From assembly GCA_903881585.1 (NCBI GenBank), contig CAIRTW010000259.1:1-35467 (forward strand): a stretch of 35,467 bases of DNA. Direction: 5' to 3'. The DNA is from an uncultured Bacteroidota bacterium. GTDB lineage: Bacteria > Bacteroidota > Bacteroidia > Chitinophagales > Chitinophagaceae. A program made the translations under genes and the position numbers. The notes beneath the pieces were generated by a model. The model searched no databases. It saw only the letters and a program-made list of their open reading frames with translations, and was not told where the DNA came from. Positions 5,601 through 11,935 of the stretch are shown here, one piece after another (positions within the stretch are counted from its first letter, which is position 1; each line of letters opens with the position of its first letter).

Positions 5601-6731
5601 TCAACGCATGACTTCGTCGAATACAGCAAATATCCTAAACAAATCCTCACTTTCCAAATTGGAGCCTGAGGGGAGGCAAAGTCCGTTTTGAAACAGCTTT
5701 TCGGCTGTGCCGTCCCCATAAAACGGGTACTGCTCGAAGACAGGCTGCAGGTGCATAGGCTTCCAAAGCGGGCGCGATTCGATATTTTCTTTTTCCAATG
5801 CCAGGCGCAGATCTTCTCTTGTAAAACCTGCTTCGGCAGGATCTATCAATATTGTGGTAAGCCACCTGTTGCTTATATACCAGAATGGTTCTTCTAGGAA
5901 GTGAATGCCTTTTTTGCCGCTTAATTTTTCAAAGTATTTATCATATATCTCCCTGCGCTTCGCTATTCTTGCTGGTAGCACTTCCATCTGGCCGCGGCCC
6001 ACTCCTGCACAGAGGTTACTCATGCGGTAGTTGTACCCAATCTTAGAATGCTGGTAGTGTGGCGCCTCGTCCCGCGCCTGTGTAGCAAGGAAGCGCGCAT
6101 CTTTTACCACCGCCTCATTGGCTGACACTAAAGCACCACCGCCAGATGTGGTTATTATTTTATTCCCGTTAAAAGAGAGAATAGAAATATCACCAAATGT
6201 GCCGCACTTGCGGCCATCGATAGATGACCCCAAAGCCTCGGCCGCATCTTCGAGTATTGGAATTTTATAGTGGTTGGAAATTACCTTTAGTGCACCCATT
6301 TTTGCCGGCATACCATAGAGGTGTACCGGTATTATGGCTTTGGGCTTATTGCCTTTTGCGATACGGTCTTTAATTGCCTCTTCCAGCAATACGGGTGACA
6401 TGTTCCAGGTGTCCTTCTCGCTGTCCACAAATATCGGCGTAGCGCCCACATAAGTAATTGGATTGGCAGTGGCGGAAAAAGTCATGCTCTGGCATAATAC
6501 CTCATCGCCGGCCTTTACGCCCAGCAATACCAGCCCCAGGTGCAGCCCTGCCGTACCGGAACTCAGCGCCGCCACATGGCTTTCATTGCCCAGGAACAGC
6601 TCCAGGTCTTTTTCAAAACCATTCACATTAGGGCCAAGCGGAGCTATCCAGTTGGTCTCAAAAGCCTCTTTCACAAACTGTTGCTCCGTGCCGCCCATGT
6701 GCGGTGATGAGAGCCATATCTTTGGTTTCAT
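5601..6731 (-). CDS. DegT/DnrJ/EryC1/StrS family aminotransferase (PglE-like sugar aminotransferase)
   Basis: MKPKIWLSSPHMGGTEQQFVKEAFETNWIAPLGPNVNGFEKDLE; PLP-Lys region SILSFNGNKIITTSGGGALVS; overlaps the acetyltransferase start by 4 bp. Confidence 0.92.
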   Translation of the reverse strand: MKPKIWLSSPHMGGTEQQFVKEAFETNWIAPLGPNVNGFEKDLELFLGNESHVAALSSGTAGLHLGLVLLGVKAGDEVLCQSMTFSATANPITYVGATPIFVDSEKDTWNMSPVLLEEAIKDRIAKGNKPKAIIPVHLYGMPAKMGALKVISNHYKIPILEDAAEALGSSIDGRKCGTFGDISILSFNGNKIITTSGGGALVSANEAVVKDARFLATQARDEAPHYQHSKIGYNYRMSNLCAGVGRGQMEVLPARIAKRREIYDKYFEKLSGKKGIHFLEEPFWYISNRWLTTILIDPAEAGFTREDLRLALEKENIESRPLWKPMHLQPVFEQYPFYGDGTAEKLFQNGLCLPSGSNLESEDLFRIFAVFDEVMR

Positions 6732-7339
6732 TTTCCTGTTTCTTTTATCTTAATGATCCTGGCAGGGTTGCCAACTGCTGTTGCATAGTCGGGTATATCT
6801 TTGATGATCACCGCACCCGCACCTATAGTACACCACTTGCCTATTCTTACTCCCTGTATCGTTGCAGCCCCAGCACCAATATGACTACCCTCCCCTACCT
6901 GCACATCCCCGCTAAGCGTGGCATTAGGAGACACGTGCACATAATCACCTAGTACACAATCGTGATCTATAGATGCACAAGTATTAATGATACAGTGCTT
7001 ACCTATTTGCGTATCCGCATTCACAACAGCACCGGCCATTATCACCGTACCCTCACCGATCGTTGCTCTTTTCGAAACGCAGGTTGAAGTGTGAATGGCA
7101 GTACCAAAGGAAACAATACCAGCAAGCCGCTCCGCCACTTTCTTACGGGTAGCATTCACACCTATGCTGATCACCATTTTGTCGCTAACCGGCTCACCGG
7201 CAGGCAATGGGCGCCTTACTGGATATTGCCATATAGGCGTTGCCGCCGCATCATCCCATATCTCGATGTGCGGCGTACTGATGCTTTCCAGTATTTCGAT
7301 GATCACCTTTCCATGCCCACTGGCTCCGTAAACGATCAT
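6728..7339 (-). CDS. NeuD/PglD-like sugar O/N-acetyltransferase
   Basis: N-terminal MIVYGASGHGKVIIEILE; left-handed beta-helix hexapeptide repeats; C-terminal AVGNPARIIK. Confidence 0.92.
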   Translation of the reverse strand: MIVYGASGHGKVIIEILESISTPHIEIWDDAAATPIWQYPVRRPLPAGEPVSDKMVISIGVNATRKKVAERLAGIVSFGTAIHTSTCVSKRATIGEGTVIMAGAVVNADTQIGKHCIINTCASIDHDCVLGDYVHVSPNATLSGDVQVGEGSHIGAGAATIQGVRIGKWCTIGAGAVIIKDIPDYATAVGNPARIIKIKETGK

Positions 7340-7404: not shown

Positions 7405-7477
7405 GGATTCCAGGTTGAGGAAAATACGAACTTCGTCATTAACTATTAATCACATATCTTTACTGATAATTTTAAGT

Positions 7478-7702
7478 ATGCTGATTGAAAGAACAAGTGA
7501 TGAAGTAATAATTCGCCTGCCATCGTATGTAGATACTGAAGGTGTGCAACGTCTTGTAGATTATTTAAGCTATAAAGAAGCTACTGCAAGATCAAAAGCA
7601 AAACAATCGGATGTTGACAAGCTCGTAAAGGAAATTAAGAAAGGTTGGTGGGACAAGAATAAAAGCAGGTTTATTAAATCAGAAACTAAGCCCAAAAAAT
7701 AA
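7478..7702 (+). CDS. Probable antitoxin of a VapBC-like TA pair (74 aa)
   Basis: ATG at 7478 gives MLIERTSDEVIIRLPSYVDTEGVQRLVDYLSYKEATARSKAKQSDVDKLVKEIKKGWWDKNKSRFIKSETKPKK; the 7415 start in the track is a TTG. Small charged protein immediately upstream of a PIN-domain ORF. Confidence 0.65.
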   Translation: MLIERTSDEVIIRLPSYVDTEGVQRLVDYLSYKEATARSKAKQSDVDKLVKEIKKGWWDKNKSRFIKSETKPKK

Positions 7703-7705
7703 TCA

Positions 7706-8155
7706 ATCATCAAAATCGTTGTTGACTCAAATATAGTGTTTAGTTGCATCCTTAACACTAATGGTACGATCGGAGATTTGATTTTCAACTCTGATGGCTT
7801 TTTTGAATTTTATAGCTGCAACTATATGCGTTATGAAATCGAAAAGCATTACAAAAAACTTAAACAAATCTCGAAACTTAGTGACGCTGAACTTAGCGTA
7901 GCACACTCCAGAGTTTTATCCCGCATACATTTTATCAATGAAGAATTAATACCAGAGAAAAGATGGATAGAGGCAGGCAAACTTATTTCAGACATTGACG
8001 TTGATGACATTGACTTCGTTGCCCTGACCAACCACTTAAAAGGTTTTTTATGGACCGGCGATAAGCCTCTTTACAATGGCCTTCGGAAAAAAGGTTTCAA
8101 AAAAGTATTGACAACTTCCGATCTTCAAAATAAAAGGCGCTCGAAAAAAGAATAA
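7706..8155 (+). CDS. PIN-domain putative toxin ribonuclease; no canonical start codon for the full domain
   Basis: Frame reads (S)IIKIVVDSNIVFSCILNTNGTIGDLIFN...EIEKHYKKL...DVDDIDFVALTNHLKGFLWTGDKPLYNGLRKKGFKKVLTTSDL; VVDSNIVFS and DFVALTNHLKGFLWTGD are PIN motifs. The track start (GTG 7736) would delete the first catalytic Asp. Confidence 0.7.
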   Translation: MIKIVVDSNIVFSCILNTNGTIGDLIFNSDGFFEFYSCNYMRYEIEKHYKKLKQISKLSDAELSVAHSRVLSRIHFINEELIPEKRWIEAGKLISDIDVDDIDFVALTNHLKGFLWTGDKPLYNGLRKKGFKKVLTTSDLQNKRRSKKE

Positions 8156-8172
8156 TGTGCAATTCGGAACAA

Positions 8173-8799
8173 TCAATCTCCCCTGAATTTCTCCATAGTA
8201 GCAGAAGTCTCTGAACTGATACCTTCCGACTTAACAATATTCCGGATGGTGAGGAAAAATATTTTGAAGTCGAGAGCGAAGCTGATGTTGTTTACATACC
8301 AGACATCATACTCAAATTTTTGCTGCCAGCTTATGGCGTTACGGCCATTTACCTGTGCCCAGCCGGTAATACCCGGCATGGCATCATGCCTGTGTCGTTG
8401 CACATCGCTATACAGAGGCAAGTATTCGATCAGCAAGGGGCGGGGGCCAATGAGGCTCATGTCACCTTTTATCACATTGAGCAGTTGCGGCAGTTCGTCG
8501 AGGGAGGTCTTCCGGATAAATTTGCCTATGCCTGTAAGCCGTACGGCATCGGGCAATAATTCGCCGTTTTTATCCTTGCGGTCGTTCATGGTCTTGAATT
8601 TTATCACCTTGAATATCCGCTCCTTTTTACCTGGCCTGCTTTGAAAAAAGAATGGTTTGCCGGAATTGGCAATGGCCAGCAGTATCACCACGATAATAAA
8701 AACAGGAGACAACACTGTGAAGATAATAAGCGCCACCAGCAGATCTATGACCCGCTTAAAGAAGTAAACGTATATGGATGATGTGAAACTTCGTTTCAT
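8173..8799 (-). CDS. Bacterial sugar transferase (PglC/WcaJ-type initiating phosphoglycosyltransferase)
   Basis: KRVIDLLVALIIFTVLSPVFIIVVILLAI, FFFQSRPGKKERIFKVIKFKTM, RKTSLDELPQLLNVIKGDMSLIGPRPLLIEYLPLY, PGITGWAQVNGRNAISWQQKFEYDVWYV motifs. Confidence 0.96.
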   Translation of the reverse strand: MKRSFTSSIYVYFFKRVIDLLVALIIFTVLSPVFIIVVILLAIANSGKPFFFQSRPGKKERIFKVIKFKTMNDRKDKNGELLPDAVRLTGIGKFIRKTSLDELPQLLNVIKGDMSLIGPRPLLIEYLPLYSDVQRHRHDAMPGITGWAQVNGRNAISWQQKFEYDVWYVNNISFALDFKIFFLTIRNIVKSEGISSETSATMEKFRGD

Positions 8800-10040
8800 T
8801 ATTTTCCTTTCACTATTTTACTGATATAGTTTATGTACTTCATCGCCAGTACCTCTCTGTCGAAATTCTCCTTTGCAAATCTGTAGCCACTTTCGCCTTC
8901 ACGCATTATACGTGCAGGATCATTGAGATAAAGGCGTATTATACGGTTGTACTCAGCGATGTTCTCCGGCTCCACATAAACACCCGCACCAGCAGCTTCA
9001 ACCAGCTCTCGCGATACACCATCTATCGCCATTAGTATAGGCCGCTTGCACGACATGTAGTCAAAGGTTTTGTTTGAATAAACGGTCTTAAAGGTATCAA
9101 CACGCTTTAATACCGATGCCCCCATTTCTGAAGCAAGGATGTAGCAAAACACTTCCGCCTTGGGCACAGAATCAAGGAACCGTACGTTTGCAATTTTCCG
9201 GTCCGCGGCCATTTTCATGAGGCGGTCTTTTTCCATGCCCTGTCCTATCAGCAGAAACAGCACATTGGTATCAGCAAGCGCTTCGCCCGCGTCCAGCAAC
9301 TGCTCCAGGTAATTGGCTACCCCATGTGCACCCACATAAGTGATCACAAACCGGCCTTCCAGATCATGTTCTTTGCGAAAAGCGTTACGGTCAAAATCAT
9401 TCAGCAGTTTTTCAGACAGGCTGAAATCGGATGCGTTTGATATCTGGATGAGCTTGTTCTCAGGTATGCCTTTCTTTTCTCTCAGTGCTGTGTAAAAAGC
9501 CGGAGTAAGCACATTGATCAATGCTGCTCTTTTATAAATGAATGCTTCCACCCAATAAGCTAGTTTTATGACCAGTTTATTGGTAAGCACCCCTGTATCA
9601 ATAGCCGATTCCGGCCACAGATCTCGCACCTCAAAGACAAACGGCATGCGGCGAAGCCGGGAAATAAGATAACCACTGGCCCCTACAAACAATGGCGGAG
9701 ACGTGACGATAACTACATCAAATTTTCCTTTGGCTTTGAACAGTCCGGCATACAGTGATGAGAACATAAAAGAAAAATACCCCCAAAGCCTGCCAATAAA
9801 ATGTTTGTTGTACGCCTCTGAAACATGGCATCGCCAAACATTAACAGCACCCTGCTGTTTGTTCACAAAATGTCTGCCTTTGTACTCCGCTATTTTTTCT
9901 TTGCCGTTATAATGCATCATGCCGCCAAGTACGGTCACGGTATGCCCCTGTTCTGTCCACACACGTGTGAATTCATTCCAACGGGAGCCGCCGGGATCAT
10001 TTTCTTCCAGAAAGTATTGGTGGATAAGCAGTATGTTCAT
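8799..10040 (-). CDS. Glycosyltransferase family 4 (WbuB-like)
   Basis: MNILLIHQYFLEENDPGGSRWNEFTRVWTEQGHTVTVLGG; FEVRDLWPESAIDTGVL; 1-bp overlap with the sugar transferase gene. Confidence 0.93.
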   Translation of the reverse strand: MNILLIHQYFLEENDPGGSRWNEFTRVWTEQGHTVTVLGGMMHYNGKEKIAEYKGRHFVNKQQGAVNVWRCHVSEAYNKHFIGRLWGYFSFMFSSLYAGLFKAKGKFDVVIVTSPPLFVGASGYLISRLRRMPFVFEVRDLWPESAIDTGVLTNKLVIKLAYWVEAFIYKRAALINVLTPAFYTALREKKGIPENKLIQISNASDFSLSEKLLNDFDRNAFRKEHDLEGRFVITYVGAHGVANYLEQLLDAGEALADTNVLFLLIGQGMEKDRLMKMAADRKIANVRFLDSVPKAEVFCYILASEMGASVLKRVDTFKTVYSNKTFDYMSCKRPILMAIDGVSRELVEAAGAGVYVEPENIAEYNRIIRLYLNDPARIMREGESGYRFAKENFDREVLAMKYINYISKIVKGK

Positions 10041-11935
10041 TTCTTGGTTTCAACGATTATGTGAGTATCAATAATCTTATTTTGGGCTGTAAAATAGCAT
10101 TCTTCGGTCTTCTCCTTTTGTCCGTATAAAGAGGAATACCAACCATCACGTTTTTCACATACCATGTCTTCGCCGTTTTCGTTCTTAGCAGTAATCAATA
10201 TTTTGCTTATCGGGTTTAGCGGCAGGTGCCACAGTTGTACCATTTTCATAGCGGGTGGCGCGTTAGTTACTACGTCTTTTATCTGCCATTCCGGCTCTCC
10301 TTTCTTCTTAATAACCACCCGCTGGTGAACAATATGCTCATTGATGTAGCGGAAAATATTCACCGAGCCTATGAACGTATATGCACCCACATCTTCGGTA
10401 ATAGCGGCCTTAGCATTTTGCGCCCAGAAGAACCAGATGAAATGCCCGCCTTTCAGCATCTGATCTTTATCATCGAGCATTACCGTATTGTGCGACTGCG
10501 TGCCACTAAAGTATCTTATGGTTCCTGCATCGGTATTGTACTTATAAGAACCTGCATCCGGCAAGATATTCTCTCCCTTATACCAAACATCAAGATGCAG
10601 ATTATCGGCTTGTGATGGCCGGTCTTTGTATGCGCCGCATTTAATAAACGTAAGCGTTTCCGGCTCCCGGATAATATAGTATCCCCCTTTAGTAAAAGTA
10701 TGTGCTCCATCAGCAGGGCTCCATTGAGTAGTTGGTTTGGCGATATTATACCAGGCTACATCTTCAAGGCTGCCCAACCCTATATCCATCCCCAGAACGG
10801 CTCCCAATGCCTGTACTTGTGGCCGGTAGTCGCGGAAATGCGCATTACTCAACCTGAAGAATAGCGCGCCGTCATTTGCGCCGTAATTAGGCAACCATCC
10901 GTTCTCTTCTACCATGCAAGTTCTCAGGAACGCAACCGACTTCCTAGCCCGGTCATACACCACATCACTGAACCGCTCACCATTCTTTTCAGACAATGCA
11001 ATGCCCCAGCTAAGCAATTGCACCACCACCCGGTGGTAATTCATAGAGAACTGCAGGAAGGTGCCATCATCATATACCTGGTAGGCTATCTCTTCTTCAA
11101 ACCATGCCTTTCCTTTTTTCTTCCAGACATCAGCTCCCGGCATGCCCGGAAAGAAGACGCCAGTAAGGTATAAGGCAAGTGTCTCCGTTATTGCATGATT
11201 GTTGCGCACAGCTATCCTGGAGAAATCAATGTTGTTATACACATGGTGCATGTGCCAGTAGATAGTATGCTGTATCTGATCAAACACTTCGTCATTGAGG
11301 AATCTGGAATTGCGATAGTAGTACAGGGCAAAGGTCCAGTTCAGTACCCGTAACGACATTTCCTGGCTACAGCGATAATTCGGGCCGCAATTGATGGGGT
11401 TACTTTTTATCCATGAGCTGATCTCGTTAAATACAAATTCAGCCTGATCGTCCTCATAATGATGATCGTAGCGGATGATGTCATAGAGATAAGAAAACCT
11501 CGACTTCTCCCACACAAATTTGATATCGCCTGCTTCTTTTGAATAATCGGCTATCTCTGTCCAATGTTTGCTAACATCGTATCTATGGCCGGAATCCGGA
11601 TTGGTGACCCAATCGTAATTGATGCCAAGATTGGCCGGCACACTGCTGAACAGCAAAAAATTACCGCTCTTTATTTTGTTAACCGTTTCTTTCAATTCCG
11701 GACTTTGGTTTCGCGGGATAGTAAGTGATTCGCGATCTGGAAAGAAAAATTTAGCAGGTTGTTGCTTCCATTGCGCGAGCGAGCAGTATTGTTTAAACGC
11801 TGGATTTACCGGGAATTTTCTTTTTAACAAACCACTGCGCCGCATCAACTCATAACGGGAGCGAAAAGCGACGTACTGCCACCCCATGTTGCCTAAAAGG
11901 TTAATTACTTTGCTTAGTCTTCCCGCCATCTGCAC
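10037..11935 (-). CDS. Heparinase II/III-family protein (polysaccharide lyase-like)
   Basis: 632 aa; alpha-toroid region NNHAITETLALYLTG, YHRVVVQLLSWG; C-terminal HLDVWYKGENILPDAGSYKYNTDAGTIRYFSGTQSHNTVMLDDKDQM. ATG at 11929 is a likely alternative start to the GTG at 11935. Confidence 0.9.
   Translation of the reverse strand: MQMAGRLSKVINLLGNMGWQYVAFRSRYELMRRSGLLKRKFPVNPAFKQYCSLAQWKQQPAKFFFPDRESLTIPRNQSPELKETVNKIKSGNFLLFSSVPANLGINYDWVTNPDSGHRYDVSKHWTEIADYSKEAGDIKFVWEKSRFSYLYDIIRYDHHYEDDQAEFVFNEISSWIKSNPINCGPNYRCSQEMSLRVLNWTFALYYYRNSRFLNDEVFDQIQHTIYWHMHHVYNNIDFSRIAVRNNHAITETLALYLTGVFFPGMPGADVWKKKGKAWFEEEIAYQVYDDGTFLQFSMNYHRVVVQLLSWGIALSEKNGERFSDVVYDRARKSVAFLRTCMVEENGWLPNYGANDGALFFRLSNAHFRDYRPQVQALGAVLGMDIGLGSLEDVAWYNIAKPTTQWSPADGAHTFTKGGYYIIREPETLTFIKCGAYKDRPSQADNLHLDVWYKGENILPDAGSYKYNTDAGTIRYFSGTQSHNTVMLDDKDQMLKGGHFIWFFWAQNAKAAITEDVGAYTFIGSVNIFRYINEHIVHQRVVIKKKGEPEWQIKDVVTNAPPAMKMVQLWHLPLNPISKILITAKNENGEDMVCEKRDGWYSSLYGQKEKTEECYFTAQNKIIDTHIIVETKK

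Follow-up and report, generated by a model that had tools for sequence, protein, structure and literature searches.

At 7478–8155 the window, by which we mean the whole analysed stretch of 35,467 nucleotides from an uncultured Bacteroidota bacterium, carries a small gene pair on the + strand, comprising an antitoxin-like gene and a predicted PIN-domain toxin. The frame of the toxin offers no ordinary start codon ahead of its catalytic aspartate. Has this toxin lost its start, or is it translated in an unusual way?

The Toxin Frame and Its Surroundings

The pair is flanked by two genes of a polysaccharide cluster, both on the - strand. The features referred to below are:

6728–7339, - strand: PglD-type hexapeptide acetyltransferase gene, flanking the pair
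7408–8165, no strand: approximate extent of the putatively inserted antitoxin-toxin unit, judged from the empty site in sister species
7478–7702, + strand: antitoxin gene, 74 amino acids, with an ATG start at 7478 and a TAA stop at 7700–7702
7678–7681, + strand: ATCA where relatives have the ATGA/GTGA overlap, by comparison with homolog junctions
7679–7711, + strand: rebuilt junction, ~31 nt longer than that of relatives and containing the TAA at 7700–7702, by homolog comparison
7706–7708, + strand: another ATC, at the position where MKK-type homologs begin
7709–7711, + strand: ATC aligned to the ATG/GTG start of homologs, candidate AUC start with an A at -3
7709–8155, + strand: predicted PIN_2 RNase-like toxin, 148 codons plus TAA, by profile search, alignment and structural model
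8173–8799, - strand: Bac_transf sugar transferase gene, flanking the pair

From stop to stop the toxin ORF spans 7703–8155 (150 codons, TAA at 8153–8155), in the same frame as the antitoxin. Downstream of the antitoxin TAA this frame reads TCA ATC ATC AAA ATC GTT GTT GAC TCA AAT ATA GTG; ATG, GTG and TTG are absent 5' of the codon for the catalytic aspartate (GAC, 7724–7726), and the first canonical in-frame start is the GTG at 7736, 3' of that codon. Re-reading of the sequence thus bears out what an earlier, sequence-only reading had described: a toxin-antitoxin (TA) pair on the strand opposite to the glycan cluster, an antitoxin stop and a PIN ORF in one frame, and a catalytic aspartate that precedes the first canonical start.

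The PIN Domain Is Intact

The toxin ORF is firmly assigned to the PIN fold. It matches the PIN_2 profile (PF10130) with 85.3 bits against a cut-off of 22.4 (E = 5.5e-24) over profile positions 1–128 of 133, that is, as a full domain, and its AlphaFold model (pLDDT 94.7, pTM 0.88) matched PIN/VapC structures in a Foldseek search. The acidic residues D6, E43, D97, and D118, invariant across 46 sequences, are all kept, and in the alignment of these sequences the toxin retains 8 of 8 invariant and 17 of 17 nearly invariant residues (25/25). With a confident model and all conserved residues in place, the earlier statement that the rest of the domain appears intact holds.

There is no decay in the toxin body. 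Relaxed selection was sought by comparing the divergence of toxin and antitoxin and was not seen, the divergence of the toxin relative to the antitoxin being ordinary (residual -0.006, sd 0.073). In a simulation of neutral drift a visible lesion, defined as a stop or a change at a conserved residue, appeared after a median of 5 substitutions (95th percentile 18). As the body is undamaged, a loss of the start, if real, would be very recent.

The antitoxin-like gene lies directly upstream of the toxin in the same orientation, an arrangement conserved in relatives (46 aligned), and by this gene order the two would constitute a type II TA module of the PIN type. Its product is at most 87% identical to the antitoxins of relatives and is modeled as beta-beta-helix-helix (pLDDT 84); searches of Pfam, NCBIfam, and PADLOC gave no family above its cut-off. 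Close relatives end in ...RFIK and the window in ...RFIK SETKPKK, the final seven codons (SETKPKK) being an extension that is absent from relatives.

Most Relatives Start the Toxin at the Antitoxin Stop

Bacteroidota genomes were searched at the level of genus, family, order, class, and phylum, which yielded 150 distinct loci with the toxin N-terminus present, the window included. A canonical start is found shortly before the catalytic aspartate, at a distance of 3 to 9 codons, in 145 of the 150 (92 ATG, 50 GTG, and 3 TTG). The dominant positions, -5 and -6 codons from the aspartate, correspond to the ATC at 7709 and the ATC at 7706 in the window, and homologs do carry ATG or GTG at the codon equivalent to 7709 (or, in the MKK form, 7706), as the sequence-only reading had proposed to check. 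The overlap was counted in the 77 pairs whose antitoxin could be delimited; in 60 of them toxin start and antitoxin stop overlap by 4 nt (ATGA/GTGA). Toxin and antitoxin of relatives are normally in different frames, and a frame shared across the stop is unusual in the family. Antitoxin starts are ATG in 80 of the 81 detected.

These homologs leave next to no room for an N-terminally shorter toxin made from the GTG at 7736. That codon is indeed the first canonical start in frame, but in each of the 145 homologs that have one, the canonical start lies ahead of the catalytic aspartate, and a search for homologs that begin at the equivalent of GTG 7736, which the earlier reading had allowed for, found none. 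We rejected this start since a protein made from it would lack strand 1 of the modeled toxin (residues 2–5) as well as Asp6 and Asn8, both invariant.

Where relatives have the overlap, the window has ATCA (7678–7681). This tetranucleotide provides no stop and no canonical start, and the frame of its ATC is closed by the TAA at 7687–7689. The distance from the last conserved lysine codon of the antitoxin to the catalytic aspartate is 45 nt, versus 14 in relatives. Together, the altered tetranucleotide and the longer spacing indicate that the junction was rebuilt, rather than changed by one substitution. The earlier suggestion of inactivation by an ATG-to-ATC change therefore had the start position right, but more than one base, in fact the whole junction, is affected.

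The extent of the change also bears on whether the missing start is an error of sequencing or assembly. The assembly is a draft of metagenome type in 376 contigs with 5.2% contamination, and the locus is a single record; however, a longer antitoxin and ~31 extra nt exceed a single-base error, and similar junctions occur in independent assemblies (loci L008, L042, and L052). We consider such an error quite improbable.

Readthrough of the TAA at 7700–7702 into an antitoxin-toxin fusion would account for two ORFs that share one frame with a single stop between them, and we judge it more improbable still. A fusion was not found among the homologs examined, most relatives have the genes in different frames with the 4-nt overlap, and efficient readthrough of UAA would be exceptional. 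Moreover, the toxins of L008, L042, and L123 are out of frame with their own antitoxins, so that sharing of the frame is not conserved. Of the three alternatives put forward earlier, recent loss and a non-canonical start both survive, and readthrough, for want of a fused homolog, does not.

We also considered whether the junction arose from a copy of the antitoxin 3' end that has since diverged. This found no support in the window, where 662 of 1000 shuffles did equally well, or in L008 (963 of 1000); the same test was marginal in L052 (37 of 1000). At the junction there was no match to Rfam, and RNA folding across it was not significant (z -1.5). At the locus no terminators were found, and promoter-like sites were not above shuffled expectation.

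The Pair Is Probably a Recent Arrival

With a single exception, the other genomes in the window's genus match the flanking genes. In the six sister loci examined in which both flanks adjoin, the acetyltransferase and sugar transferase genes are separated by a few to ~70 nt with nothing like the pair between them. From this comparison the pair appears to be an insertion of ~0.76 kb in the lineage of the window and, the site being empty in sister species, probably a recent arrival; compared with the nearest relative that has an empty site, the flanking genes show a dS of ~1.1. No repeats bounding the insert were evident. A search of viral contigs gave no relative, and a search of plasmids one distant relative.

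A seventh sister locus, in G315 (L203:380–1634), holds a different stretch of ~1.25 kb at the site, unlike the TA pair, so the gap may receive insertions repeatedly. Elsewhere in the window, the glycosyltransferase cluster includes a gene for a Heparinase II/III-like protein with a GTG start (10037–11935).

Relatives Without a Canonical Start

Four loci, namely the window, L050, L052, and L123, have an intact toxin body without a canonical start in place. L123 has ATA at the start position and is otherwise intact; L052 has ATC there, with an in-frame ATG 9 codons upstream; L050 is likewise otherwise intact and has a GTG that is 2 nt out of frame. Two further junctions come from one genus: in L008/L150 (Flavipsychrobacter), which is cut by a contig end, an ATC stands 4 nt past the antitoxin stop (TAG AGCT ATC AAG), and in L042 it stands 2 nt past the stop (TAG CC ATC AAA), the toxin body being interrupted by an insert bounded by inverted repeats. 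A canonical start is lacking in 4 of the 20 closest loci (window included) versus 1 of the 130 others (Fisher p 0.001). A conserved subclade with ATC was considered and rejected, as the tree scatters these cases.

Two of these loci deserve description in their own right. The insert in the PIN_2 toxin gene of L042 (L042:1315–1530) is short, has the inverted repeats gataaaataaagtacaccat / atggtgtactttattttatc, and looks like a miniature transposable element. In L050 (G470:C9:7471–7900), with the sequence AAGTGAAAAGATCGTC, slippage by -1 on the run of A would yield MKKIVVD; alternatively, the frameshift may be fresh.

Toxin genes with damaged bodies are frequent. An early stop is present in 24 of the 150 loci and frameshifts in others, so that ordinary loss of the toxin gene is common in the family. 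The ratio of four start-less loci with intact bodies to 24 with body lesions could arise from ordinary decay.

Loss of the Start or Initiation at AUC

The most economical reading, and the one to which we incline somewhat, is that the toxin start was recently lost through rearrangement of the coupled junction. A small PIN-domain TA pair would have entered a Bacteroidota genome by horizontal transfer and come to lie between two of its polysaccharide genes. In relatives, to judge from the 4-nt stop overlap, the toxin is probably translated by termination-reinitiation at the ATG or GTG. In the window a rearrangement of the junction would have removed both overlap and start codon and left ATC. Coupled reinitiation depends strongly on the two genes overlapping or lying very close together and fades within about 20 nt (PMC10666635); the disappearance of overlap and AUG from the window thus supports loss of the start. 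With both gone, the toxin is most likely silenced or translated in traces only, without meaningful synthesis; the antitoxin is intact.

Two observations count against loss. The body shows no decay, although a lesion would be expected after few substitutions and dS is ~1.1, and other start-less relatives have ATC or ATA in place of the start codon, unlike what random loss predicts.

Both fit a functional toxin that starts at AUC (7709 or 7706), by reinitiation on a weak near-cognate codon 3–6 nt past the UAA at 7700–7702, which we regard as possible though less probable. Such a weak start would hold toxin synthesis low relative to the antitoxin. The ATC is located exactly at the start codon of homologs and directly past the antitoxin stop, at a gap short enough for termination-reinitiation; the body is intact with no relaxed selection seen; and the start-less relatives also have AUH at this place (ATC in L008, L042, and L052, ATA in L123). 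In the family, moreover, toxin starts are often GTG (50/145) and antitoxin starts ATG (80/81 detected), but the GTG frequency may merely reflect the last lysine codon of the antitoxin (AAG-TGA). AUC is, in the bacteria studied, a very weak initiator. Weak third-base pairs are excluded by IF3 (PMC10158994), whereas an A at -3, as present at the ATC at 7709, favors initiation in Bacteroidota (PMC6847099). The ATCAA could furthermore be a relic of the isoleucine and lysine codons of the antitoxin, and the ATC cases, few in number, do not group together in the tree. L042 is broken by its insert and L008 is cut by the contig end, so neither proves function. The AUH codons of the start-less relatives are suggestive of use as weak starts, but the cases are few, were noticed post hoc and include one clearly broken gene. 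A wider proposal, that in some PIN_2 TA members the overlapping ATG or GTG was replaced several times independently by AUC or AUA shortly past the antitoxin stop, with near-cognate reinitiation selected as it lowers the toxin, appears doubtful to us.

If the toxin is silenced, the locus would be a snapshot of a TA pair losing its toxin at the coupled start, with antitoxin and toxin body still intact. Use of AUC would instead make it a rare natural example of near-cognate initiation, shared by related junctions within a single toxin family, and a simple means of tuning toxin dose; it would also caution that toxins of this kind are overlooked or truncated in gene prediction.

Comparison With Known Systems

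The pair is closest in kind to the PIN_2 (PF10130) toxin pairs of Bacteroidota, with which it shares the full-length profile match, the gene order, and the conserved residues, at identities of at most 87% for the antitoxin and about 65% for the toxin. It differs from them in the loss of the overlapping ATG/GTG, the seven additional antitoxin codons, the ~31 nt added, and the single frame. With VapBC it has in common a PIN fold with conserved acids, a small upstream antitoxin gene, and the Foldseek matches to VapC; however, the toxin is just about 10–16% identical to the matched VapC structures, and the antitoxin matches no known antitoxin family, those of the DNA-binding VapB type included. 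Bacterial genes with AUU, AUC, or AUA starts have been reported, such as infC and pcnB (both AUU) of E. coli. The window likewise has AUH at the start place; in those genes initiation is experimentally shown, whereas in the window it is a possibility.
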